A stretch of DNA of 56,048 nt. It comes from Microcystis aeruginosa Ma_SC_T_19800800_S464 (lineage in GTDB: Bacteria; Cyanobacteriota; Cyanobacteriia; Cyanobacteriales; Microcystaceae). Where the stretch lies: NCBI GenBank assembly GCA_007095785.1, contig SFBL01000084.1:1-56048 (forward strand). The letters run 5' to 3'. Made by a program: the position numbers and the translations under genes. A model generated the notes under the pieces. The model was not told the origin of the DNA. It worked only from the letters and a program-made list of their open reading frames with translations, and searched no databases. Shown here in pieces: positions 20,443-47,406 of this stretch. Position 1 is the stretch's first letter, and the number at the start of each line of letters is the position of its first letter.

Positions 20443-20669
20443 CCTATAGTTAGGGTTTGCGGCAAAAAGTTTTTCAGCAAATCCTAAATAATCAGTCTTT
20501 AATAACTGGATTTAGTATTACTTGGTCGTCTTTTGATAAATGGCGATCGCATTGCACTAATCCGATGGCTTCGACTAGAATAAATATGCTAGGATTAGGG
20601 TAATTTATCTGGATCAAGTTATTCCCTAGCTTAAATAAACACTCATTCCTCCACTGACAACATATCATC

Positions 20670-21308
20670 ATGGATCTACCAGCCTTTGATCATAACCTTC
20701 ATCAGTCCGATGCCACTTACACTTTACACGCTGATTTGGATTCGTCGCTGGATTTGCACGACCACCAAGATTTGTTAAACGACCCCAATTTGGGAGTTCA
20801 CCACGATCCCTTTGTCCCATCTAATATCAGCATTTATGAGCCTCATCATATCCATAATGCTTTTGAGCATCAGGGTTTAGCAGATTATCAACCCCATCAC
20901 GCTAATGGTTTATTAGACCATCAATATTCTCAAGTTGATCATCCTTCTCATTTTGATCAAGGTTTTGAGAACCAGCACTTAGCAGATTATCACCCTCATC
21001 ATGCTAACAGTTTCCCAGACCATCAATATTCCCACCCAGATCATACTTCCCATTGGGATCATCTTTCACAGCGATCTGGTTCTGAGACGGCTTCTGAGTT
21101 ATTAAGTAAAGCAAATGAAATGGAGAAACGGGCTAATGAAAGTTTAAGTCGTTCTCAGAGTCACAGTAAAGAAGCCGATTGGCATCGTGAGCATAAAAAC
21201 CAGTCAGATGCCTCTAGTCATGGGAAAGAAGCCCAAAATGCGATGGCTGAATCTGAGAAATATCAGGCGGAAGCTCAAAAGTTAAGGGAACAGGCGAAAA
21301 AAGTCTAG
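20670..21308 (+). CDS. His/Asp-rich repeat protein with C-terminal coiled coil
   Basis: This 212-residue protein is extremely rich in His and Asp in its first 135 residues. It holds two copies of a unit of about 37 residues, recognisable by LADYQPHHANGLLDHQYS and LADYHPHHANSFPDHQYS. The last 75 residues are charged and helical (SELLSKANEMEKRANESL, QAEAQKLREQAKK), predicting a coiled coil. I do not recognise the family. His clusters suggest metal binding or pH sensing (inference). It precedes the dynamin genes by 161 nt on the same strand and may belong to their unit. No signal peptide. Confidence 0.7.
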   Translation: MDLPAFDHNLHQSDATYTLHADLDSSLDLHDHQDLLNDPNLGVHHDPFVPSNISIYEPHHIHNAFEHQGLADYQPHHANGLLDHQYSQVDHPSHFDQGFENQHLADYHPHHANSFPDHQYSHPDHTSHWDHLSQRSGSETASELLSKANEMEKRANESLSRSQSHSKEADWHREHKNQSDASSHGKEAQNAMAESEKYQAEAQKLREQAKKV

Positions 21309-21469: not shown

Positions 21470-24400
21470 ATGTCTTGGATGTATGGCTTAAGTTTGTTAG
21501 CATCAAGTGGCATTAATGCTTGGTCAGCATCAGAAAATCGTAAATCTTCTGAAAGTATCAGTCGGCTAAATCGGGATTCTTCCGAAGAAATTGCTCGATT
21601 AAGTAGAAAGCATTCCGCAGAATTGCAGTATAATCAATTAAAATTTTCCGTATTGCAACAAAGAGAAAATCAAGAATTTCAAAGAGAATTAGCTGAACTT
21701 AACCACGAAAGAGCGAAGGAAATTGAGGCTTTTCGGGCGAAAGTGAGTCACGCTATTAATCAAAAAAATCTGGATTTTCAAAAATGGCGTTTTGAGCAGG
21801 AAAAGAAAATTCAATATGATATTTTACAGTTACAGCAGGATTTTCAACGGGAGTTAAGCCGTCTTCAACATCAAAATGCGGTGGAGTTGATGCGGGAAAG
21901 GGTAAGATCAGATAAATCTCCTATTCATAATCAAGCTTTCGATTTATTAGAAAATTCTTTTGCTCATCCGTTGATGCCTTTGCAGGTACTAATTTCACCG
22001 CCCCAACTAAATTATGATCCCAAAACAGGTAAACCCTATCTTTCTGGCTTTGAAGATACTTTAGCGGAGGAAATTCATCAGTTTCTTAGTCAGGGCCATG
22101 CTCTTAATCAAGAATGGCCTGTTCAATTCCTAAATGGAAATTGGATCTCTAATAGCCAGGGTGGAAATGCTGCTCTATTGTCTCTGCATTCACAGTTAAA
22201 AAGCATTCACGTTCTAGTTTTGGATACAAAAATCCCATTGGATAAACTAAATTTCAGTGTGGGATACTGGTTTAGTGGTGATACTACTTTTACTCGCCGT
22301 CCCATTTTGTCAGGTCAATCTTTTCCTGATTTGCTTTATGAATCTGCTAAAAAAAGAGCGCTGGAATGGGAGAAAAAAAGAGAAAAAATCAAGGCTAGTG
22401 GTAAGGATGAAGCATATATTAAGGCTTTAGGGAAGGTCGATGAGGAAAATTTACAGATTTATTTCCAAGAGTTAGCAGGAATTGCTGAATTAAAACAAAC
22501 TGGTGTTACCGATTTACTTATTCGTAAAGAATACAAGATTACGGAGGAAGATTATAAAACATTTTATCAATATTTGGCGGTATGGCATTGTTTAGCGATC
22601 GGGCTTTATGCTGACATTCTCTTTTTGGGTAATTCTTGGGAAAATATTCCTTTATTGCCTAGTTTAATTCCTTATCTGTTAGAAAAATATCGGGATAACC
22701 CTCTGTTAACTTCGGAGTTTTGGCAGGAAGCCATTTCCAGCATTGTGAAGGTTTACGGAGAGTTTTATAATAGCTTGAGGTCGGATTTTGCCCATTGGGC
22801 GACTGAAATTCGGATGGAGTTAGCATTATCTTTGGCTAATTTACCAAGCGAGTATCAGTGTTTGGCTTTAGAGCAAGGTAATCAGGCTTTTTCCGATTGG
22901 TTACGAGCTAATGATGCGCCTTCGGACAAGGTTTTTGATCTCGACAATGACGCTGATTGTCAGCTTTTGAAACGGATTATTTATCAAGAAGATAAGCCGT
23001 TTTTAGAGTCATTAAAGTTGTTATTAGAGAAAATTCGGGGGGCAGAGGGGATTGATGAAATTAAAACGAATGTAATTGGCAGTTTTTTAGTTGGTTGGGA
23101 GTTTTTGATCTGTCCTGATAGTACTTACAATCTATCAATGATAGAAGCCGAAAAATTACCAGCGATTGTGGAGACAAATCCTGAAAAATCTGATATAATT
23201 AGTCAAGCAAGCATCAGTTGTCAAACAACCACGAGGAAAAATCCCATGAGTAATCAAACTTCTTCCGTTAATTTCGAGGCAACTGAAGTTCGTCTTTGGT
23301 TTGCCGATCAACTGGATCAAATACGTCAAACTTTAGTTACATCAGAGAAACAAGCGGCAGAAGCATCAGGAAAGTTGGCACTATCGGCTCTAATAGATAA
23401 TTTGCGTAGGGAAGTTGATAAACTGAAAAATGCAAAATTTCGTTTTTTGATTATTGGAGATTTTAATCGTGGTAAGAGTAGTATTTTAAATGTTTTATTT
23501 GGTCAAGAACTGCTACCAATGGGAGTCACGCCTACTACGTCTATTCCTACTTTTATTCAATACGGGGAACAAGCAAAAGTCATAGTTTACAAGAAAGATG
23601 GTACACAAGAAAGCATGGGCTTAAAGGAGTATCAACAGAAATATACTTTTAACTCAAAACAGGTAAAAGATAAAATCAAAAATATTTTTAAAACAGTTGA
23701 AAATTGGCTAAATTCTTTAGAAAAAGCCGAAATCTATTACCCAATCGAATTGTTATCGAGGGGGGTAGAGTTTATTGATACAGCAGGACTGAACAGTTCG
23801 GAAGCTGAAGATAGAAAAACGTTGTCGTACATTCCTGAGTGTCATGCAATTCTATTTGTTTTAAGTGCTCACCAGCAGCTTACTGCCAAAGAGCAAGCTT
23901 ATCTAAACACACATATTAAGGATAAAGTAGGATCAGTATTCTTTTTGATCAATCAATGGGAATTAGTCCCAGAATCAGATAAAGAAGAAATACATGAGGC
24001 TTTTGTTGAAAGATTATCTGACTGTTTAACAGCAAAAGAAGAAGAAATCGAACAAATGTGGGAGGACACCATATTTGATGTATATGCTCGTACAGCTTTA
24101 GAAAGACTAAAAGAAAAAAACTCTCTCGACGGCACTGGATTTATGCAATTCAGCGCGAGACTTGATCATTTTTTGATTCATGAACGATTAATTGCTGAAC
24201 TATTGCCATCTCTTCAAACGGCAACATCCGTTACGAATAGGGTAACTGAGGTTGTTGAGGAAAGATTACTTGTTCTTAATGAGACGGTAAAGTCTTTGGA
24301 AGAAAAAATCAGAAAAGTTAATCCTCATATTAAGTCAATGAAAACAATTGCCAAAGGGTTAAGAAAGGGAGCTACTAATACCAAAAATGCTTGTATTGCA

Positions 24401-25297
24401 CAAGTTGGGGGAGAGTATCAGAGTTATTTTAGTCAAATACTAAGCAAAATTGAGAATGATTTCACAATGCCTCCTGTAGCTGGTCTCGGAGAGAATCAGA
24501 AAGAGAACTATACAAAACAGTTAGAGAAAAAATTCCAAGAATACCAGCAAGAGAAACTTGATGGATGGAAAAAAATAAGTGCGGGTATAGTAGCCAATAA
24601 TTATCTTGAGTTAACTGAGTTGTTTAGTGAAGAAAATAAGGAATACGATAGAGAAAGACAAGAAATTAAGGAAATTCTTGAAGGAAAAGACCTTAATATT
24701 CAAAATCAATCTCAGCTATCAACTTATCAAACTGGTTCTACTCCAGAAAGTTCTCTAAAGGCAATTGATGGTAACGCAACTAAAAAAATGATTTTAGCTG
24801 GATCAGCCGCTACAGTGGGTACAATCACAGCAGGTGTTGGAGTGGCTACTGCTGCGAACGTTTATCTTGGTACTCATATACTATTAGCGGCTGGGTTAGC
24901 TGTAACACCAATAGGAGCGGCTTTATTAGCTGTTAGTGTTGTAGGTGGTGGACTTGCAACTTGGTGGGGACGACGTTCGGAGATCGATAAATTTCAAAAA
25001 GAAATGCAAAAACAATTAGCGCAAGAATTTCAAAAATTGCTTGAACCTAAGCAAATATCGGGTATTAAGGAAGCTATTGGGAATTTATTTGTTGGTTTTG
25101 AGAGTTATGCCGATCAATTAAAAGATGACGTTGAATCTTTGGAAAGTTCTCTGAATAACTTACTGGAATCCAAAAGGAGTAAAGAAGTTGATGCTCAAGC
25201 TGAAGCAAAACGTTTAGAAGCCTTGAAAGCAGATATTTCTGCTCAATGGGAAACTATTAATGTCAAATATAAGGAGATAGCTACAGCTAAAAAATAA
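21470..25297 (+). CDS. Giant bacterial dynamin-like protein with a novel N-terminal module
   Basis: This 1275-residue protein has two parts. Residues 1-155 are a long charged coiled coil; about 155-590 is a mixed globular region I do not recognise (contains PLQVLISPPQLNYD and FSVGYWFSGD). Residues 593-1275 are a whole dynamin-family GTPase: G1 GDFNRGKSS (663-671), switch/G2 TPTTSIPT, G3 DTAG (770-773), G4 NQWE (828-831), helical stalk, then a hydrophobic Gly/Ala-rich paddle (about 1105-1166) and a final coiled coil. The C-terminal 683 residues match the size of stand-alone cyanobacterial BDLPs, which bind and bend membranes. An internal Met593 has its own ribosome site. Confidence 0.85.
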   Translation: MSWMYGLSLLASSGINAWSASENRKSSESISRLNRDSSEEIARLSRKHSAELQYNQLKFSVLQQRENQEFQRELAELNHERAKEIEAFRAKVSHAINQKNLDFQKWRFEQEKKIQYDILQLQQDFQRELSRLQHQNAVELMRERVRSDKSPIHNQAFDLLENSFAHPLMPLQVLISPPQLNYDPKTGKPYLSGFEDTLAEEIHQFLSQGHALNQEWPVQFLNGNWISNSQGGNAALLSLHSQLKSIHVLVLDTKIPLDKLNFSVGYWFSGDTTFTRRPILSGQSFPDLLYESAKKRALEWEKKREKIKASGKDEAYIKALGKVDEENLQIYFQELAGIAELKQTGVTDLLIRKEYKITEEDYKTFYQYLAVWHCLAIGLYADILFLGNSWENIPLLPSLIPYLLEKYRDNPLLTSEFWQEAISSIVKVYGEFYNSLRSDFAHWATEIRMELALSLANLPSEYQCLALEQGNQAFSDWLRANDAPSDKVFDLDNDADCQLLKRIIYQEDKPFLESLKLLLEKIRGAEGIDEIKTNVIGSFLVGWEFLICPDSTYNLSMIEAEKLPAIVETNPEKSDIISQASISCQTTTRKNPMSNQTSSVNFEATEVRLWFADQLDQIRQTLVTSEKQAAEASGKLALSALIDNLRREVDKLKNAKFRFLIIGDFNRGKSSILNVLFGQELLPMGVTPTTSIPTFIQYGEQAKVIVYKKDGTQESMGLKEYQQKYTFNSKQVKDKIKNIFKTVENWLNSLEKAEIYYPIELLSRGVEFIDTAGLNSSEAEDRKTLSYIPECHAILFVLSAHQQLTAKEQAYLNTHIKDKVGSVFFLINQWELVPESDKEEIHEAFVERLSDCLTAKEEEIEQMWEDTIFDVYARTALERLKEKNSLDGTGFMQFSARLDHFLIHERLIAELLPSLQTATSVTNRVTEVVEERLLVLNETVKSLEEKIRKVNPHIKSMKTIAKGLRKGATNTKNACIAQVGGEYQSYFSQILSKIENDFTMPPVAGLGENQKENYTKQLEKKFQEYQQEKLDGWKKISAGIVANNYLELTELFSEENKEYDRERQEIKEILEGKDLNIQNQSQLSTYQTGSTPESSLKAIDGNATKKMILAGSAATVGTITAGVGVATAANVYLGTHILLAAGLAVTPIGAALLAVSVVGGGLATWWGRRSEIDKFQKEMQKQLAQEFQKLLEPKQISGIKEAIGNLFVGFESYADQLKDDVESLESSLNNLLESKRSKEVDAQAEAKRLEALKADISAQWETINVKYKEIATAKK
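23233..23248 (+). promoter_or_regulatory. Internal ribosome site and ATG inside the giant dynamin gene
   Basis: GAGG at 23233-23236 lies 9 nt before an in-frame ATG at 23246 (Met593). This is just where the dynamin half begins (MSNQTSSVNFEATEVRLWF) and after a low-complexity linker. Translation here would give a free 683-residue dynamin-like protein in addition to the fusion. Confidence 0.45.
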
Positions 25298-25389
25298 ACG
25301 TATTTTCGTAATTGTTTAAGCGTAGTTTACTAAAATTATTATTTAGTGGGCTACGTTTTTCTCTATTAATTCAAGGGCTTATATTCAAA

Positions 25390-27045
25390 ATGAAATCTGT
25401 AATTACAACTTCAAACACTCTTAAAACGGCTTGCCAATTTCTTGACCCTCAAGAACACCAACAGCTTATTAAAGATGTAGAATTAGTCTGCGAACAACTC
25501 GTTGATCCTAACTTTAGAGTAGCTGTTCTTGCACCCTTTAATTTCGGCAAATCCACACTAATTAATGCTCTGTTAGGTCAAAATATAATGCCTGTTAAGA
25601 TGATCAGAACAACTGGTATAGCAATCAGGATTAAATACGGAAAAACTTTAACTACAATTATTACCTTAAAATCAGGTGAAATCATTAGAAGCAATGACAC
25701 AGAAATCCTCAAAGAATTTGCCGTGTTAAACAAAAAAGGACAACGAAGAGAAGATGTTGACTCTGTAGAAGTTTTATGCCCTCATTTCCTATTAAAGAAC
25801 GGAGTAGAATTGCTAGATTTGCCTGGAACAAACGATAGAGAAGCACAAGATATTTTAGTCCGTGATCAATTATTACAGGTTGATTTAGTCATCCAAATAT
25901 TAAATGCAAGACAACCCTTTACTCAAGGTGAACAAGACACTTTAAATCAATGGTTAATTGAGAGAGGAATAAAAACAGTTATTTTTGTTCTGAATCGTAT
26001 GAATCAAATAGAAAACAAAAAAGACAAAAGTGAAATATATGATGATGTAGTCTCCACAATTAAATTTTTCAAACCTGACTTACCAGAGGGCTTAAAAAAA
26101 CTATATTGTGTTGATGCCCTTCCTGCTCTAGAAGCAAAACAAAACAAGAAAAAATGGAATGTCTTTAAAAGTGGCATCATTGATTTTGAAGTTAGTTTAT
26201 TGACTATCATCTCATTGTATAAAAAAAGAACAAGTCAAACTAGGTTACTCCGTGTAATTACTATGGCAAGTAAAGTAAAATCTATATTGCATAAGCAAGC
26301 TAAAGACTTAGCTATGGAAATTTCAAATGCTGAAAATATCAGAAATCTTGCTATTGAGAAAGGAAAACAACAAGAAAAATCACTAAAAGAAGAATTTAAA
26401 AAAAGAGTAGAAAATTATCAAAACTGGCTGTCCCCAAATATTCTTGTTGCGAGTTATCAAATAGATGCAGCAAAAACTTTAGAGACTAGAGGTTTTTATG
26501 ACTGGCAAGATAGCAAGTTTAAGTCCATTATTCTTGATTACACTCAAGCTATAGAAAAATGTGTTAGCAAAGCCTGTACAAAACTTCAAAAAAGTAATTC
26601 TAATCGTATTAATATTTCATTTCCTGAGTATCCAAAAGTCTCATTACCTAGTCGTCAAGATAGAAATGCGGGACAGTGGATTGGTGACATTTTTAACGGT
26701 GGCGCAAATCGCAAGAAATTAGACCAGGAATATGAAAATAAGAAGTGGCAAGCTTATAAAGATGCTGCCTATAGTTATTTATCCGAATTTAGTAAAAATA
26801 CCTTAGCTTCCCTAAATGAATATGAAAAAAATATTGATCCCTTAATTACTTTTTCTATACCACCAGAATCTCGTGAAGTTATTTACAAACGTAACGACTT
26901 GAATTCTATAAATTCTTCCATTAACTCAATTCAATGTTTAGAATCACAAAAAGCTAGAATAAATAGATATAAATTAAAAACTTTGGAACTTCTTAAGGTA
27001 TTTATAATATTTTGGAGTAACTGGTTTTTATATTTTTTAAAGTAA
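25390..27045 (+). CDS. Second dynamin-family GTPase
   Basis: This 551-residue protein starts at the ATG at 25390; the in-frame TTG at 25312 would add an unlikely 26 residues. The P-loop reads APFNFGKST (48-56), with Ala replacing the usual first Gly. G3 is DLPG (143-146). G4 is NRMN (202-205), so the Asp that reads guanine is Asn. A helical stalk follows, rich in Lys and Glu, and the last 15 residues are hydrophobic (VFIIFWSNWFLYFLK), a possible membrane anchor. It lies 92 nt after the giant dynamin gene and is probably its functional partner, as in other paired bacterial dynamins. Confidence 0.8.
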   Translation: MKSVITTSNTLKTACQFLDPQEHQQLIKDVELVCEQLVDPNFRVAVLAPFNFGKSTLINALLGQNIMPVKMIRTTGIAIRIKYGKTLTTIITLKSGEIIRSNDTEILKEFAVLNKKGQRREDVDSVEVLCPHFLLKNGVELLDLPGTNDREAQDILVRDQLLQVDLVIQILNARQPFTQGEQDTLNQWLIERGIKTVIFVLNRMNQIENKKDKSEIYDDVVSTIKFFKPDLPEGLKKLYCVDALPALEAKQNKKKWNVFKSGIIDFEVSLLTIISLYKKRTSQTRLLRVITMASKVKSILHKQAKDLAMEISNAENIRNLAIEKGKQQEKSLKEEFKKRVENYQNWLSPNILVASYQIDAAKTLETRGFYDWQDSKFKSIILDYTQAIEKCVSKACTKLQKSNSNRINISFPEYPKVSLPSRQDRNAGQWIGDIFNGGANRKKLDQEYENKKWQAYKDAAYSYLSEFSKNTLASLNEYEKNIDPLITFSIPPESREVIYKRNDLNSINSSINSIQCLESQKARINRYKLKTLELLKVFIIFWSNWFLYFLK

Positions 27046-27057
27046 TGGATAAATAAA

Positions 27058-27153
27058 TATAGCGGCATTCTCCTGAGTGAGAACATGGAACTTCTTGCGG
27101 ATTAAGGATTTTAGCCATTTTATTTGTCCCTCACCAGCTCAGATGCCGCTATA
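27058..27153. mobile_element. 96-bp MITE-like element with TATAGCGGCAT ends
   Basis: TATAGCGGCAT at the left and ATGCCGCTATA at the right are perfect 11-bp inverted repeats, with further partial matching inward (AGTGAG/CTCAC). The ends allow a TA target duplication, as in IS630/Tc1-mariner-type elements. There is no coding capacity. It lies between the second dynamin gene and a toxin pair. Confidence 0.6.
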
Positions 27154-27191
27154 ATTCATAATTGATAACTTTAAGGGAGGATTAATAAATC

Positions 27192-27452
27192 ATGTTAACA
27201 ATTAATCTAGATCATGAATCAGAAAAATATTTAATTGAAATTTTATCAGAAGAGAAAATAACTAGCCAAGAATTAGTTAAAAAACTCTTGCGTAACCATT
27301 GGATTACTCTAAAAAAATCGCCAACAGTTTTAGAAAGAATGGGTGGTTATCCTGAACATTTATTAGACGAAAAAGAAGACTTGTCTGACAGAGATATTCG
27401 TAAGCAAAAAATTGCTAAATATTTGCGCCAAAAACATGAACGCCATGAATAG
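27192..27452 (+). CDS. Antitoxin-like protein upstream of a PIN toxin
   Basis: This 86-residue, highly charged protein starts MLTINLDHESEKYLIEILSE and ends in Lys/Arg/Glu-rich helix. The N-terminal strand followed by helices suggests a small dimerising DNA-binding antitoxin, but I cannot name the class. A GGGAGG ribosome site lies 11 nt upstream. The PIN gene starts 2 nt after its stop, which supports the antitoxin role. Confidence 0.65.
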   Translation: MLTINLDHESEKYLIEILSEEKITSQELVKKLLRNHWITLKKSPTVLERMGGYPEHLLDEKEDLSDRDIRKQKIAKYLRQKHERHE

Positions 27453-27454
27453 TT

Positions 27455-27883
27455 ATGACTGAATATTACCCCTTTATCCTTATTGATACAGGAATTATCG
27501 TCGCATTTTACAATAAAGGTGATCGTTATCATCAACAAGTTGTTAATTTTTTTGCTAATTGTAGTAGTCAATTAATTACGACTGTTAGCTGTATAACTGA
27601 ATGTATGTGGTTACTTGCACCAGATGTAAAAGTTCAAACAGAGTTTTTATCAGCCTTAGAAAAAGAAGTATTTATTGCTGAACATTTACTATCAGAATAT
27701 TATCAAAAAATCAAACAGTTAAATCAGATTTACCAAGATTTACCTGCTGATTTCACTGATTTATCGTTAATAGCAATTTCTGAAAGATTAAATATACCTG
27801 CTATTGCCACTTTAGATAAAGATTTTGATATTTATCGCCGTTATCGTAATCAATTTTTTATCAGAGTTTTTTATCCTCAGTAG
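27455..27883 (+). CDS. PIN-domain ribonuclease toxin
   Basis: This 142-residue PIN protein has the acidic residues Asp11 (LIDTG), Glu49 (CITEC), Asp102 (FTDLSL) and Asp121 (TLDKDF). It is translationally coupled to the preceding small gene as a VapBC-like module. AT-rich codon use matches the dynamin island rather than the flanking core genes. Confidence 0.83.
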   Translation: MTEYYPFILIDTGIIVAFYNKGDRYHQQVVNFFANCSSQLITTVSCITECMWLLAPDVKVQTEFLSALEKEVFIAEHLLSEYYQKIKQLNQIYQDLPADFTDLSLIAISERLNIPAIATLDKDFDIYRRYRNQFFIRVFYPQ

Positions 27884-28045
27884 TGCGATTACTCTTATTA
27901 TCTATGGCTAAAGCCATTACTACCAACCAAAAGGCGATCGCAAGTTTTCGGGTTATTTGTATGCCGTAGAGTTTGTCATTTTCTCCTTTATTAAAATCCC
28001 TCAATCTCCTAACTATCTTCAGGACTAAATTGAGAAAGCATAATT

Positions 28046-36060: not shown

Positions 36061-36123
36061 TATGCCCCGCCAATTTTATTTCTAGTTTAATTGTATTACT
36101 ATTAACACTGTCCATTTAAAACT

Positions 36124-36168
36124 GTAATCTGATAACTGATTACTGATAACTGATCACTGATAACTGAT
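36124..36168. repeat. ACTGATAA-type heptamer array at the tilS stop codon
   Basis: About six CTGATAA/CTGATTA/CTGATCA units run into the end of tilS, and its last codons (ISYQ, stop) are made of the repeat. Confidence 0.85.
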
Positions 36169-37128
36169 ATGTAGCCAATTTTGTTGTACTTCTACCCGAA
36201 TTTTGCCGGTTAAGGAGGAAGTGGCATCGCGATTAACACCAGTAATGAGATTAACCACTGACTCAACTTCGGCAAAATTAGGCGATGAGGGTAAATATTC
36301 AGCTAAAAATAAACGAATCACTCGTCTTTGTATCGCTAGAGGTAGAATTTGTAAAGGGGAGCGATCGAGTCTTTGTTGATCTAGATCAATAACCTGACGA
36401 AAAATATCCCGGGCAATACTATCTAAATAATCGCTTTCTGCTTCCAAAATTTCGGCAGTCTGGGCGAGATGTTTTTCGATTTGGGGATTTAAATTAGTTT
36501 GCAGGTAGGGTAATAATTCCAGACGGATGCGATTGCGAGCATAGCGTAAATTTTCATTAGCTTGATCGTACCAGATCGGTAATTCTCGACTTTGACAAAA
36601 AGCGAAAGTTTCCCCGCGAGTGACATTTAAGAGGGGACGGACTAAAAAAATATCTGGGGTTAAACTTGTCCACCAAGTTAAGGCAGAAAGTCCATCACTA
36701 CCCGCTCCGCGCGTGAGATTATAAAGGAAAGTTTCCGCTCGATCGCTCCTTGTGTGTGCCGTGAGAAGATAATTAAAACCCTCTTCTTGGGCGATTGTTT
36801 GTAAAGCTTGATAACGCCATTGTCTTGCTTTGGCTTCCGTTTCCGCCATGGGGGGTGCGGTGGCAATATAAACAGGTAATTGCCAAATTTCGGCGATTTT
36901 CTGCACATGATCCACTAATCCTCGGTCGTAGGACCAACGGTGATCACAATGAGCGAGCGCTAGTTGCCAACCCCAACGAGAGCGCAAATCCAGCAATAAT
37001 TGACCTAAACAGAGGGAATCCTGACCTCCTGACAATGCCACTAACAGAGACGCATTTTTAGGTAGTAATTGTCCCTTTTTCACCGTGGTTTCCAGACGAG
37101 TATGGAGAGGTGTCCAAAAATTAGCCAA
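36154..37128 (-). CDS. tilS: tRNA(Ile)-lysidine synthase
   Basis: This 324-residue N-type ATP pyrophosphatase has the PP-loop SGGQDS (33-38), AHCDHRW and the LLTAHTRSDRAETFLYNL segment. TilS converts the wobble C34 of tRNA-Ile(CAU) to lysidine so that it reads AUA. The length corresponds to a compact form with NTD and a short CTD. The C-terminal residues come from the heptamer repeat, so the protein end may vary between strains. Confidence 0.92.
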   Translation of the reverse strand: MANFWTPLHTRLETTVKKGQLLPKNASLLVALSGGQDSLCLGQLLLDLRSRWGWQLALAHCDHRWSYDRGLVDHVQKIAEIWQLPVYIATAPPMAETEAKARQWRYQALQTIAQEEGFNYLLTAHTRSDRAETFLYNLTRGAGSDGLSALTWWTSLTPDIFLVRPLLNVTRGETFAFCQSRELPIWYDQANENLRYARNRIRLELLPYLQTNLNPQIEKHLAQTAEILEAESDYLDSIARDIFRQVIDLDQQRLDRSPLQILPLAIQRRVIRLFLAEYLPSSPNFAEVESVVNLITGVNRDATSSLTGKIRVEVQQNWLHISYQ

Positions 37129-46654: not shown

Positions 46655-46747
46655 ATAGTAAACAGTAATCAGGGATAAAGATAACTAACTCACTAATTAA
46701 CTTAAAACTTACATCTGATAACTGATAACTGATCACTGATAACTGAT
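46655..46747. repeat. CTGATAA heptamer and AGTAAACAGTAATCAG units
   Basis: Repeat units of the same family fill the gap and touch the stop codon of the coiled-coil gene. Confidence 0.8.
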
Positions 46748-47406
46748 TAAGGACGTTCTCCGGATAGATTTTTTAAAGATGTTGGTTTCGATCTTACCTG
46801 TTGACGACCGTTACGGACAACCTGTAACATTTGTCCTAATTGTTGATCAAGATGTTCTAAAACCGCTTCAGCATAGTCGTCAGCGCCTTTTTGAATTTCA
46901 TGACATTCAGCTTGGGTTTTTTGTCGTAACTGTTGCACTTCCTGCAAGGTGCTGTGACGCATCTGTTCGATTTCATCGAGGGTTTGTTGTTGCAAGGATT
47001 CGCACTCCTGCTGAACCCGTTGACGAATTTGGGACGCTTGCCGTTCTGCTTGTTGAATAATACCAGACTCGTCGAGAATTTGGGCGGCCCTTTGTTGAGC
47101 AGAACGAAGGACTTGTTGAGCGTATTCCTCCGCTTTAGTGATAATTTCCTCTTCTTCCCGTAAAATTGCTAAAGCTTTCTGTACTGCCGGTGGCACGGTT
47201 TCATAGATGATATCGATCTGTTCGGATATCTGTCCCTCATCGATCATTGTCCAACGGGTGAGGGGGATATGGAAACTATCAAAAATCATCTCTTGCAGAC
47301 GCGCCAAATCCTGATAGATATCGAAATCGACGGGTGGACTGGGAACCGCACTATTAGAAGTGTTAGGTACTGCTTTTCTGGGATCATTAGGTTCTCGGCG
47401 CGCCAT
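46747..47406 (-). CDS. Coiled-coil DivIVA/ATP-synthase-B-like protein
   Basis: This 219-residue protein has a disordered N-terminus, a short helical domain (IYQDLARLQEMIFDSFHIPL) and then more than 120 residues of continuous Gln/Glu-rich coiled coil (QQAERQASQIRQRVQQECES). Similar proteins occur beside coaD in other bacteria, which matches this context. A cell-envelope or division scaffold is possible (inference). No transmembrane part. Confidence 0.65.
   Translation of the reverse strand: MARREPNDPRKAVPNTSNSAVPSPPVDFDIYQDLARLQEMIFDSFHIPLTRWTMIDEGQISEQIDIIYETVPPAVQKALAILREEEEIITKAEEYAQQVLRSAQQRAAQILDESGIIQQAERQASQIRQRVQQECESLQQQTLDEIEQMRHSTLQEVQQLRQKTQAECHEIQKGADDYAEAVLEHLDQQLGQMLQVVRNGRQQVRSKPTSLKNLSGERP

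Follow-up and report, generated by a model that had tools for sequence, protein, structure and literature searches.

A constant N-terminal module and an exchangeable GTPase pair at a variable locus of Microcystis aeruginosa

The window analysed here is the whole 56,048-nt contig SFBL01000084.1 (assembly GCA_007095785.1) of Microcystis aeruginosa Ma_SC_T_19800800_S464. It contains two dynamin-family genes, the first of which, open reading frame 1 (ORF1), joins a large N-terminal module in frame to a dynamin, while the second (ORF2) encodes a smaller dynamin. From sequence comparison, we regard as established that the module belongs to a family in which the C-terminus has been exchanged repeatedly, and that in related genomes the module at this locus is followed by a different GTPase pair. 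The reading that we tentatively prefer is that of one unit, a constant adaptor with an exchangeable GTPase pair that would carry out, at the membrane, the response of a stress or defence switch.

The module-dynamin gene and its partner

Residues 593-1275 of ORF1 match Dynamin_N (PF00350, 5.9e-28) in Pfam, and the C-terminal part also matches the bacterial dynamin helical domain nearly full length (PF21808, 2.1e-57, positions 3-373 of 373). The dynamin GTPase motifs are present as GDFNRGKS (P-loop), DTAG (DxxG) and NQWE, the last of which we read as the G4 motif. The nearest solved structure is NosDLP of Nostoc punctiforme (2j68, E 3.5e-80, residues 606-1270), and a seven-row profile including this dynamin matches 2j68 over its whole length (E 3.4e-237). 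With its paddle-like hydrophobic stretch at residues ~1108-1165, the C-terminal part of ORF1 reads as a complete NosDLP-type dynamin (dynamin 1).

ORF2 likewise matches Dynamin_N (6.9e-22). Its P-loop, APFNFGKS, has alanine in place of the first glycine, and seven aligned relatives have alanine or glycine there. Its start is most likely the ATG at 25390, because the aligned relatives begin there or a few residues upstream. The hydrophobic tail is also found in its four nearest relatives, and the two dynamin genes are adjacent, without the module, at the four closest relatives (L150-L153). No module was found on inspection of a 982-aa dynamin-like ORF in another genome (L314 in G002). The first-pass annotation of this DNA had described a head-to-tail pair, made up of a full-size bacterial dynamin-like protein with a paddle and a smaller dynamin with a hydrophobic tail; this description, including the pairing, is borne out.

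The same annotation had assigned ORF1 about 590 extra N-terminal residues, formed by a coiled coil and an unrecognised globular domain. Searched alone, residues 1-592 gave no match in Pfam (up to E 1) or in NCBIfam (up to E 0.1), and ORF1 as a whole had no PADLOC match up to 0.1. Searches of the PDB and Pfam brought no known fold to light. The module forms a family with its relatives, whose profile (alignment A1) matches the window protein with E 3.4e-162 at positions 21-514 of 526, the window sequence itself being part of the profile. The N-terminal module is thus borne out as a separate part, one that recurs in other genomes. The figure of 592 residues is only an upper bound, because dynamin 1 has its own ATG (23246), with GAGGA just ahead of it, and stand-alone relatives begin at that position too; we place the extension at 520-590 residues, in frame with dynamin 1. 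Its first 145 residues are charged and coiled-coil-like, as judged from the charge pattern rather than computed, and are followed by the globular domain without a name.

Exchange of the GTPase pair at one locus

The window genome (G000, 4.77 Mb) was compared with the 11 further genomes found for its genus. The neighbouring TgpA-like gene is present in all of them (12/12 with the window genome), and the slot behind it varies. In the window it holds a 212-aa ORF, the module-dynamin 1 gene, dynamin 2 and a VapBC-like pair. In G202 and G241, the 212-aa ORF is followed by the module, there fused to another GTPase, and then by a second GTPase. G211 retains part of the 212-aa ORF, and a PIN-like ORF, before its contig ends. 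In the remaining eight genomes the slot contains neither the module nor the 212-aa ORF nor a GTPase pair, G244 having the VapBC-like pair and the contig of G221 ending ~1.2 kb past TgpA. The module is therefore at the locus in 3/12 genomes and the dynamin pair in 1/12. No module was found anywhere in the genomes of G211 and G221, the examination of G243-G246 being confined to the locus, and a sample of the six other genus genomes, which did not include G241, contained no dynamin relative with an E-value of 1e-20 or below. A fixed housekeeping locus, one of the findings that would have spoken against the first-pass annotation, is ruled out by the slots that lack the unit in most genus genomes.

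At the comparison loci L031 and L032, TgpA together with the 212-aa ORF is 95% and 97% identical in nucleotides to the window, respectively. The module is 83% identical to that of the window by single-sequence search (89% in nucleotides to L032). Homology stops ten codons before the dynamin start and resumes downstream, mostly at 96-98% (breakpoints in Table 1). In between, the module is fused to a GTPase of another family, which matches MMR_HSR1 in Pfam (1.4e-6 in L032, just under the cut-off in L031) and is here called IRG-like for its resemblance to interferon-inducible GTPases; its distant paralogue (30% identity) lies downstream as the second GTPase. The same tandem, in the same order and without the module, occurs at L316, L317 and L318, and relatives of the first GTPase were found in 11/234 genomes of the order, G202 included. 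These comparisons establish the natural pairing of both sets of GTPases, and in-frame junctions at or near their natural starts.

The divergence of the module from those of L031/L032 is higher than that of its surroundings: its synonymous divergence (dS) is 0.31-0.33, against 0.07-0.11 for the flanking TgpA, bilin reductase and SRPBCC genes (0.26 and 0.09 for the 212-aa ORF). At third codon positions, the module and dynamins have a GC content (GC3) of 0.23-0.31, TgpA one of 0.46. Combined with a ratio of nonsynonymous to synonymous divergence (dN/dS) of 0.28-0.29, which places the module under selection, these values lead us to see in the module-dynamin unit an acquired cassette that recombines and is under purifying selection. 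Between L031 (6678-8393) and L032 (8053-9768), the first IRG-like GTPase itself differs with a dS of 0.50, compared with 0.03 for the module before it and 0.08 for the GTPase after it, which marks a local hot spot of exchange or diversification.

The other fusion is arranged like that of the window, with AGGAG before the internal ATG, and stand-alone versions of the swapped GTPase begin within ~8 residues of the fused one's internal Met. Both fusions thus sit at or near the natural start of the GTPase with a Shine-Dalgarno-like sequence kept, and the product in the window may be the long fusion, free dynamin 1, or both. Such internal starts, together with the AT-rich cassette, would also suit a relic of cassette swapping, in which a dynamin operon landed behind the module, is translated separately, and owes its joined frame to little of consequence. 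We consider such a relic rather unlikely, since the frame appears to be more than chance: the 72-codon linker stays open in only 0.2% of base shuffles and has stops in its other two frames. Moreover, two different GTPases are both joined in frame, and in most relatives the module runs in frame into a C-terminal domain (L043, L260 and L275, which are short, being the exceptions).

The module family and its C-terminal partners

By single-sequence search, the module is present in 73/243 genomes of the order, the window genome included; the module profile found it in 50/386 genomes of the phylum, again including that of the window, with two outside the order and several giving only distant, partial matches. 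The fetched loci, which do not cover all matching places, yielded 110 distinct module ORFs besides that of the window, 11 of them partial and 99 readable. Sorted by sequence motifs of our own, the 95 near-complete modules (window included) end in WD40 (48), FGE (23), TPR alone (6), NTPase (6), GUN4 (3) or short and other sequences (9). The NTPase class consists of the window dynamin, two IRG-like GTPases, one Hsp70-like protein and two CobW proteins. Pfam, run on eight module proteins and then on four module proteins with six distant relatives, confirmed WD40, FGE, TPR, CobW and HSP70 in the module proteins scanned and gave no family in L049 and L275.

In a tree of the modules, the window groups with L031/L032 (support 99) and with L033 (support 100), which is the same protein as L159 of Gomphosphaeria aponina and has an FGE end by motif. 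The C-terminal class changes 15 times on this tree without the nine short or other rows and 23 times with them. For the FGE class alone there are 11 changes, 10 of them forced by well supported branches. The first-pass annotation had the module sense or recruit; as the sensor-like WD40, FGE or TPR part lies at the other end of the protein in most relatives, we hold the module to be more likely an adaptor than a sensor.

The module and an Hsp70-like protein form one chain in L063 and are separate nearby genes in L043 and L260, which we count as support for module and NTPase belonging together. At the latter two loci (L043:9839-15154 and L260:4860-9571), a third protein shares a stretch, by eye, with the end of the L049 module protein. 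On contig C18 of G165 (L267, L316), an IRG-like GTPase pair, a module-TPR gene and a dynamin pair lie within ~62 kb, the last two ~1 kb apart and convergent with one ORF between them. We do not argue from the proximity of dynamin and module in other genomes, because it was seen at L267 and L315/L063 only. WD40 proteins of ~600-760 aa at L239-L248 carry a distant version of the module (E ~1e-8 to 1e-11; WD40 by Pfam in the six scanned), which points to a wider domain superfamily. A further relative (L191) is on a record titled Thiotrichaceae bacterium, whose sample code, S06, is shared with a cyanobacterial bin, pointing to transfer or misbinning.

Several module-FGE genes appear to be targets of diversity-generating retroelements (DGRs). 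Reverse-transcriptase ORFs with what we take to be a DGR-type motif lie near module genes at four separate loci: L039 (whose contig is that of L164, from Planktothrix sp. PCC 11201), L208 (where the module is broken into pieces), L264 and L277. The 3' end is repeated outside the gene in 7 of the 26 module-FGE loci tested. In four of these, mismatches fall mostly on template A (L039 12/16, L277 13/15, L258 13/15, L053 14/15), a strong bias typical of DGR diversification. Of the other three, L264 has 11/28, the repeat of L208 has 44 bases without A bias, and that of L181 is a second module gene (12/44). In passages of two papers, DGR-target FGE domains are proposed to sense antigens for conflict systems (PMC10907252) or to be ligand-binding parts of signalling proteins (PMC7517822). 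No description of the module is found in the passages seen of these two or of PMC7159879 and PMC8195603, and none of the titles and abstract openings listed in literature searches describes a dynamin with such an N-terminal extension.

Neighbouring features and possible roles

The features of the locus are listed in Table 1. The 212-aa ORF, which accompanies the module in the genus, is 95% identical in L032 and 86% in L031, with a 164-aa remnant in L141; it had no hit at the other eight genus loci and no Pfam match. The first gene of the VapBC-like pair is named antitoxin by its position only. The same pair, at 95-96% identity, lies in the L148 slot, where there is neither module nor GTPase, which indicates that these genes visit the slot independently. 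No second copy of the stem-loop between the dynamins was found in the window's own genome, and promoter and terminator scans of the region gave numbers as in shuffles; the stem-loop could be a terminator or attenuator, or chance. Short interspersed repeats lie at 20485-20520, 36120-36176 and 46680-46749, and the ~20485-20520 piece is listed in all 12 genus genomes. Mobility on a phage or plasmid finds no support: no module relatives were found in plasmids or viral contigs, and positions 20000-44000 of the window had no plasmid match.

Table 1. Features of the module-dynamin locus (window positions).
Feature	Position	Strand	Basis or remark
His/Asp-rich 212-aa ORF accompanying the module in the genus	20670..21308	+	comparison of genus loci
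ORF1, 1275 aa, ATG start	21470-25297	+	module and dynamin 1 in one frame
N-terminal module proper, residues 1 to ~520	21470..23029	+	42-sequence alignment A1
Linker, 72 codons, open in this frame only	23030..23245	+	shuffles; homology to L031/L032 ends 23216
Segment exchanged in L031/L032 for the other GTPase pair (holds the VapBC-like pair in the window)	23217..28045	+	blastn breakpoints 23216, 28046
Shine-Dalgarno-like GAGGA, 8 nt ahead of internal ATG	23233..23237	+	sequence
Dynamin 1 (NosDLP type; helical domain and hydrophobic paddle; 683 aa from the internal ATG)	23246..25297	+	Pfam, 2j68 match
ORF2, open frame from TTG 25312	25312-27045	+	head to tail with ORF1, 14 nt gap
Stem-loop, 17 pairs, between the dynamins	25318..25358	+	count of such sites in region not above that of shuffles
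Dynamin 2, likely 551 aa from ATG 25390, hydrophobic C-terminal tail	25390..27045	+	Pfam Dynamin_N; alignment with relatives
VapBC-like toxin-antitoxin pair (PIN), directly downstream	27192..27883	+	PIN 1.7e-8 for 27455-27883

In the unit that we propose, the module would associate with itself and bring the first GTPase to its place, where GTP would drive pairing with dynamin 2, whose tail would sit in the membrane. The GTPase pair would then remodel or seal the membrane on a signal such as phage or envelope damage. If the fusion and free dynamin 1 from the internal start are both made, the ratio of anchored to free subunits may be tunable. Passages of the literature describe a bacterial dynamin pair whose hetero-tetramers tether membranes (PMC6104087), and a delay of phage lysis by DynA (PMC8844932). 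The defence role of the unit is our inference.

Several observations weigh against this reading. Its weakest steps are the trigger by phage or stress and the existence of the long chain in the cell, as the internal start with its ribosome site may mean that the long fusion protein does not accumulate. The first-pass annotation had called the pair a membrane-acting stress or defence module, and the defence part of this is not supported here. PADLOC families at 1e-10 numbered 97 among 148 of the 348 neighbour ORFs, the ones beside the top-scoring modules, and 56 among 117 control ORFs taken from 20 arbitrary stretches, or 0.66 and 0.48 per ORF, slightly higher beside modules by a crude measure that has many overlapping models (several methyltransferase models with one listed protein each), is no per-protein count and lists 25 families on each side. 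No clear enrichment of defence genes beside module homologues was seen in this comparison. The 42-row module profile gave nothing convincing in the PDB (best E 0.33), leaving the module without a fold. By P-loop motif, none of the 99 other readable module ORFs, some of them cut by contig ends, has a dynamin behind the module, which leaves the window protein as the one dynamin fusion seen.

Two segments of the L032 downstream flank are only 90-91% identical. The first swapped-in GTPase alone resembles interferon-inducible GTPases over the P-loop region only (E 0.01); its ten-row profile matches these at 1.6e-5 but EngB at 3e-6, and one of the ten members also matches Dynamin_N (0.0054). The tree of the modules is a quick one, with long branches flagged by the program, and the C-terminal classes depend on our motifs, that of GUN4 being a presumed one and the SH3-like label of L049 being given by eye to a protein without a Pfam family. 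Contig ends account for some of the "TPR" and "short" labels, so that the number of changes is inflated. The 23 changes compare with 43.2 in shuffles, and the classes are clustered on the tree: exchange was repeated but not free, and classes also run in clades.

The dynamins might instead serve the upkeep of the thylakoid or plasma membrane, with the module only setting their place. Dynamin relatives are common (117/237 genomes of the order) and the neighbours of module genes are ordinary, among 25 of 205 Pfam families listed. We nonetheless find such a role unlikely, as the pair is accessory in the genus and a housekeeping role would be hard to reconcile with another family's GTPase pair in the same place. 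We reject membership in the Leo/Eleos systems, since ORF1 has no match and ORF2 matches LeoA (2.6e-13) at positions 103-368 of 559 only and LeoBC weakly (7.4e-5). A stand-alone anti-phage system of that kind, which these ORF2 matches, the tandem dynamins and the variable locus would suit, is improbable, the closest solved family being NosDLP.

Like NosDLP (BDLP1) and the tandem cyanobacterial dynamins, the proposed unit has full-length GTPase, helical and paddle parts and an adjacent second dynamin; it differs in the large N-terminal module and the smaller hydrophobic-tailed partner downstream, L150-L153 having the pair without the module. DynA of Bacillus subtilis is also a large dynamin chain with an anti-phage effect, but consists of two fused dynamins, with no such module described in the passages seen of PMC5827413. 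In outline, the DO-GTPase/GAP1 and MoxR-vWA ternary conflict systems, as presented in part of Kaur 2020, are alike in their constant component, an often paired NTPase switch and exchangeable sensor or effector parts. As far as that outline goes, the window differs in having dynamin or IRG-like GTPases, not DO-GTPases, and a module without a match in Pfam. Nine proteins of the window were scanned, namely ORF1, ORF2 and seven others close by, and none shows a MoxR ATPase or vWA domain. Pfam presumably holds models for GAP1. Several DGR-diversified FGE (lectin-like) target proteins of cyanobacteria have this same module at the N-terminus, while the window protein has no FGE domain.

A broader view, which we regard as doubtful, is that an unnamed cyanobacterial immune-type adaptor family takes whole tandem GTPase pairs as interchangeable executors, with a dynamin pair in one strain, an IRG-like pair in its sisters, and lectin or propeller sensors, some DGR-hypermutated, elsewhere. 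Such a system would be the bacterial equivalent, through parallel design, of the Mx (dynamin-like) and IRG GTPases in the cell-autonomous immunity of animals.

The arrangement is suggestive of a plug-in design for signalling in stress or immunity. Section 7 of PMC5827413 describes what NosDLP does in vivo as still unclear. A NosDLP-type dynamin wired to a module that other cyanobacteria join to sensor-like repeats and DGR-hypermutated lectin folds gives a concrete hypothesis. Strains that are close relatives and share the adaptor but differ in their GTPase pair provide a natural experiment, and the module itself is a widespread domain to which none of the libraries searched (Pfam, NCBIfam, PADLOC and PDB) gives a name.

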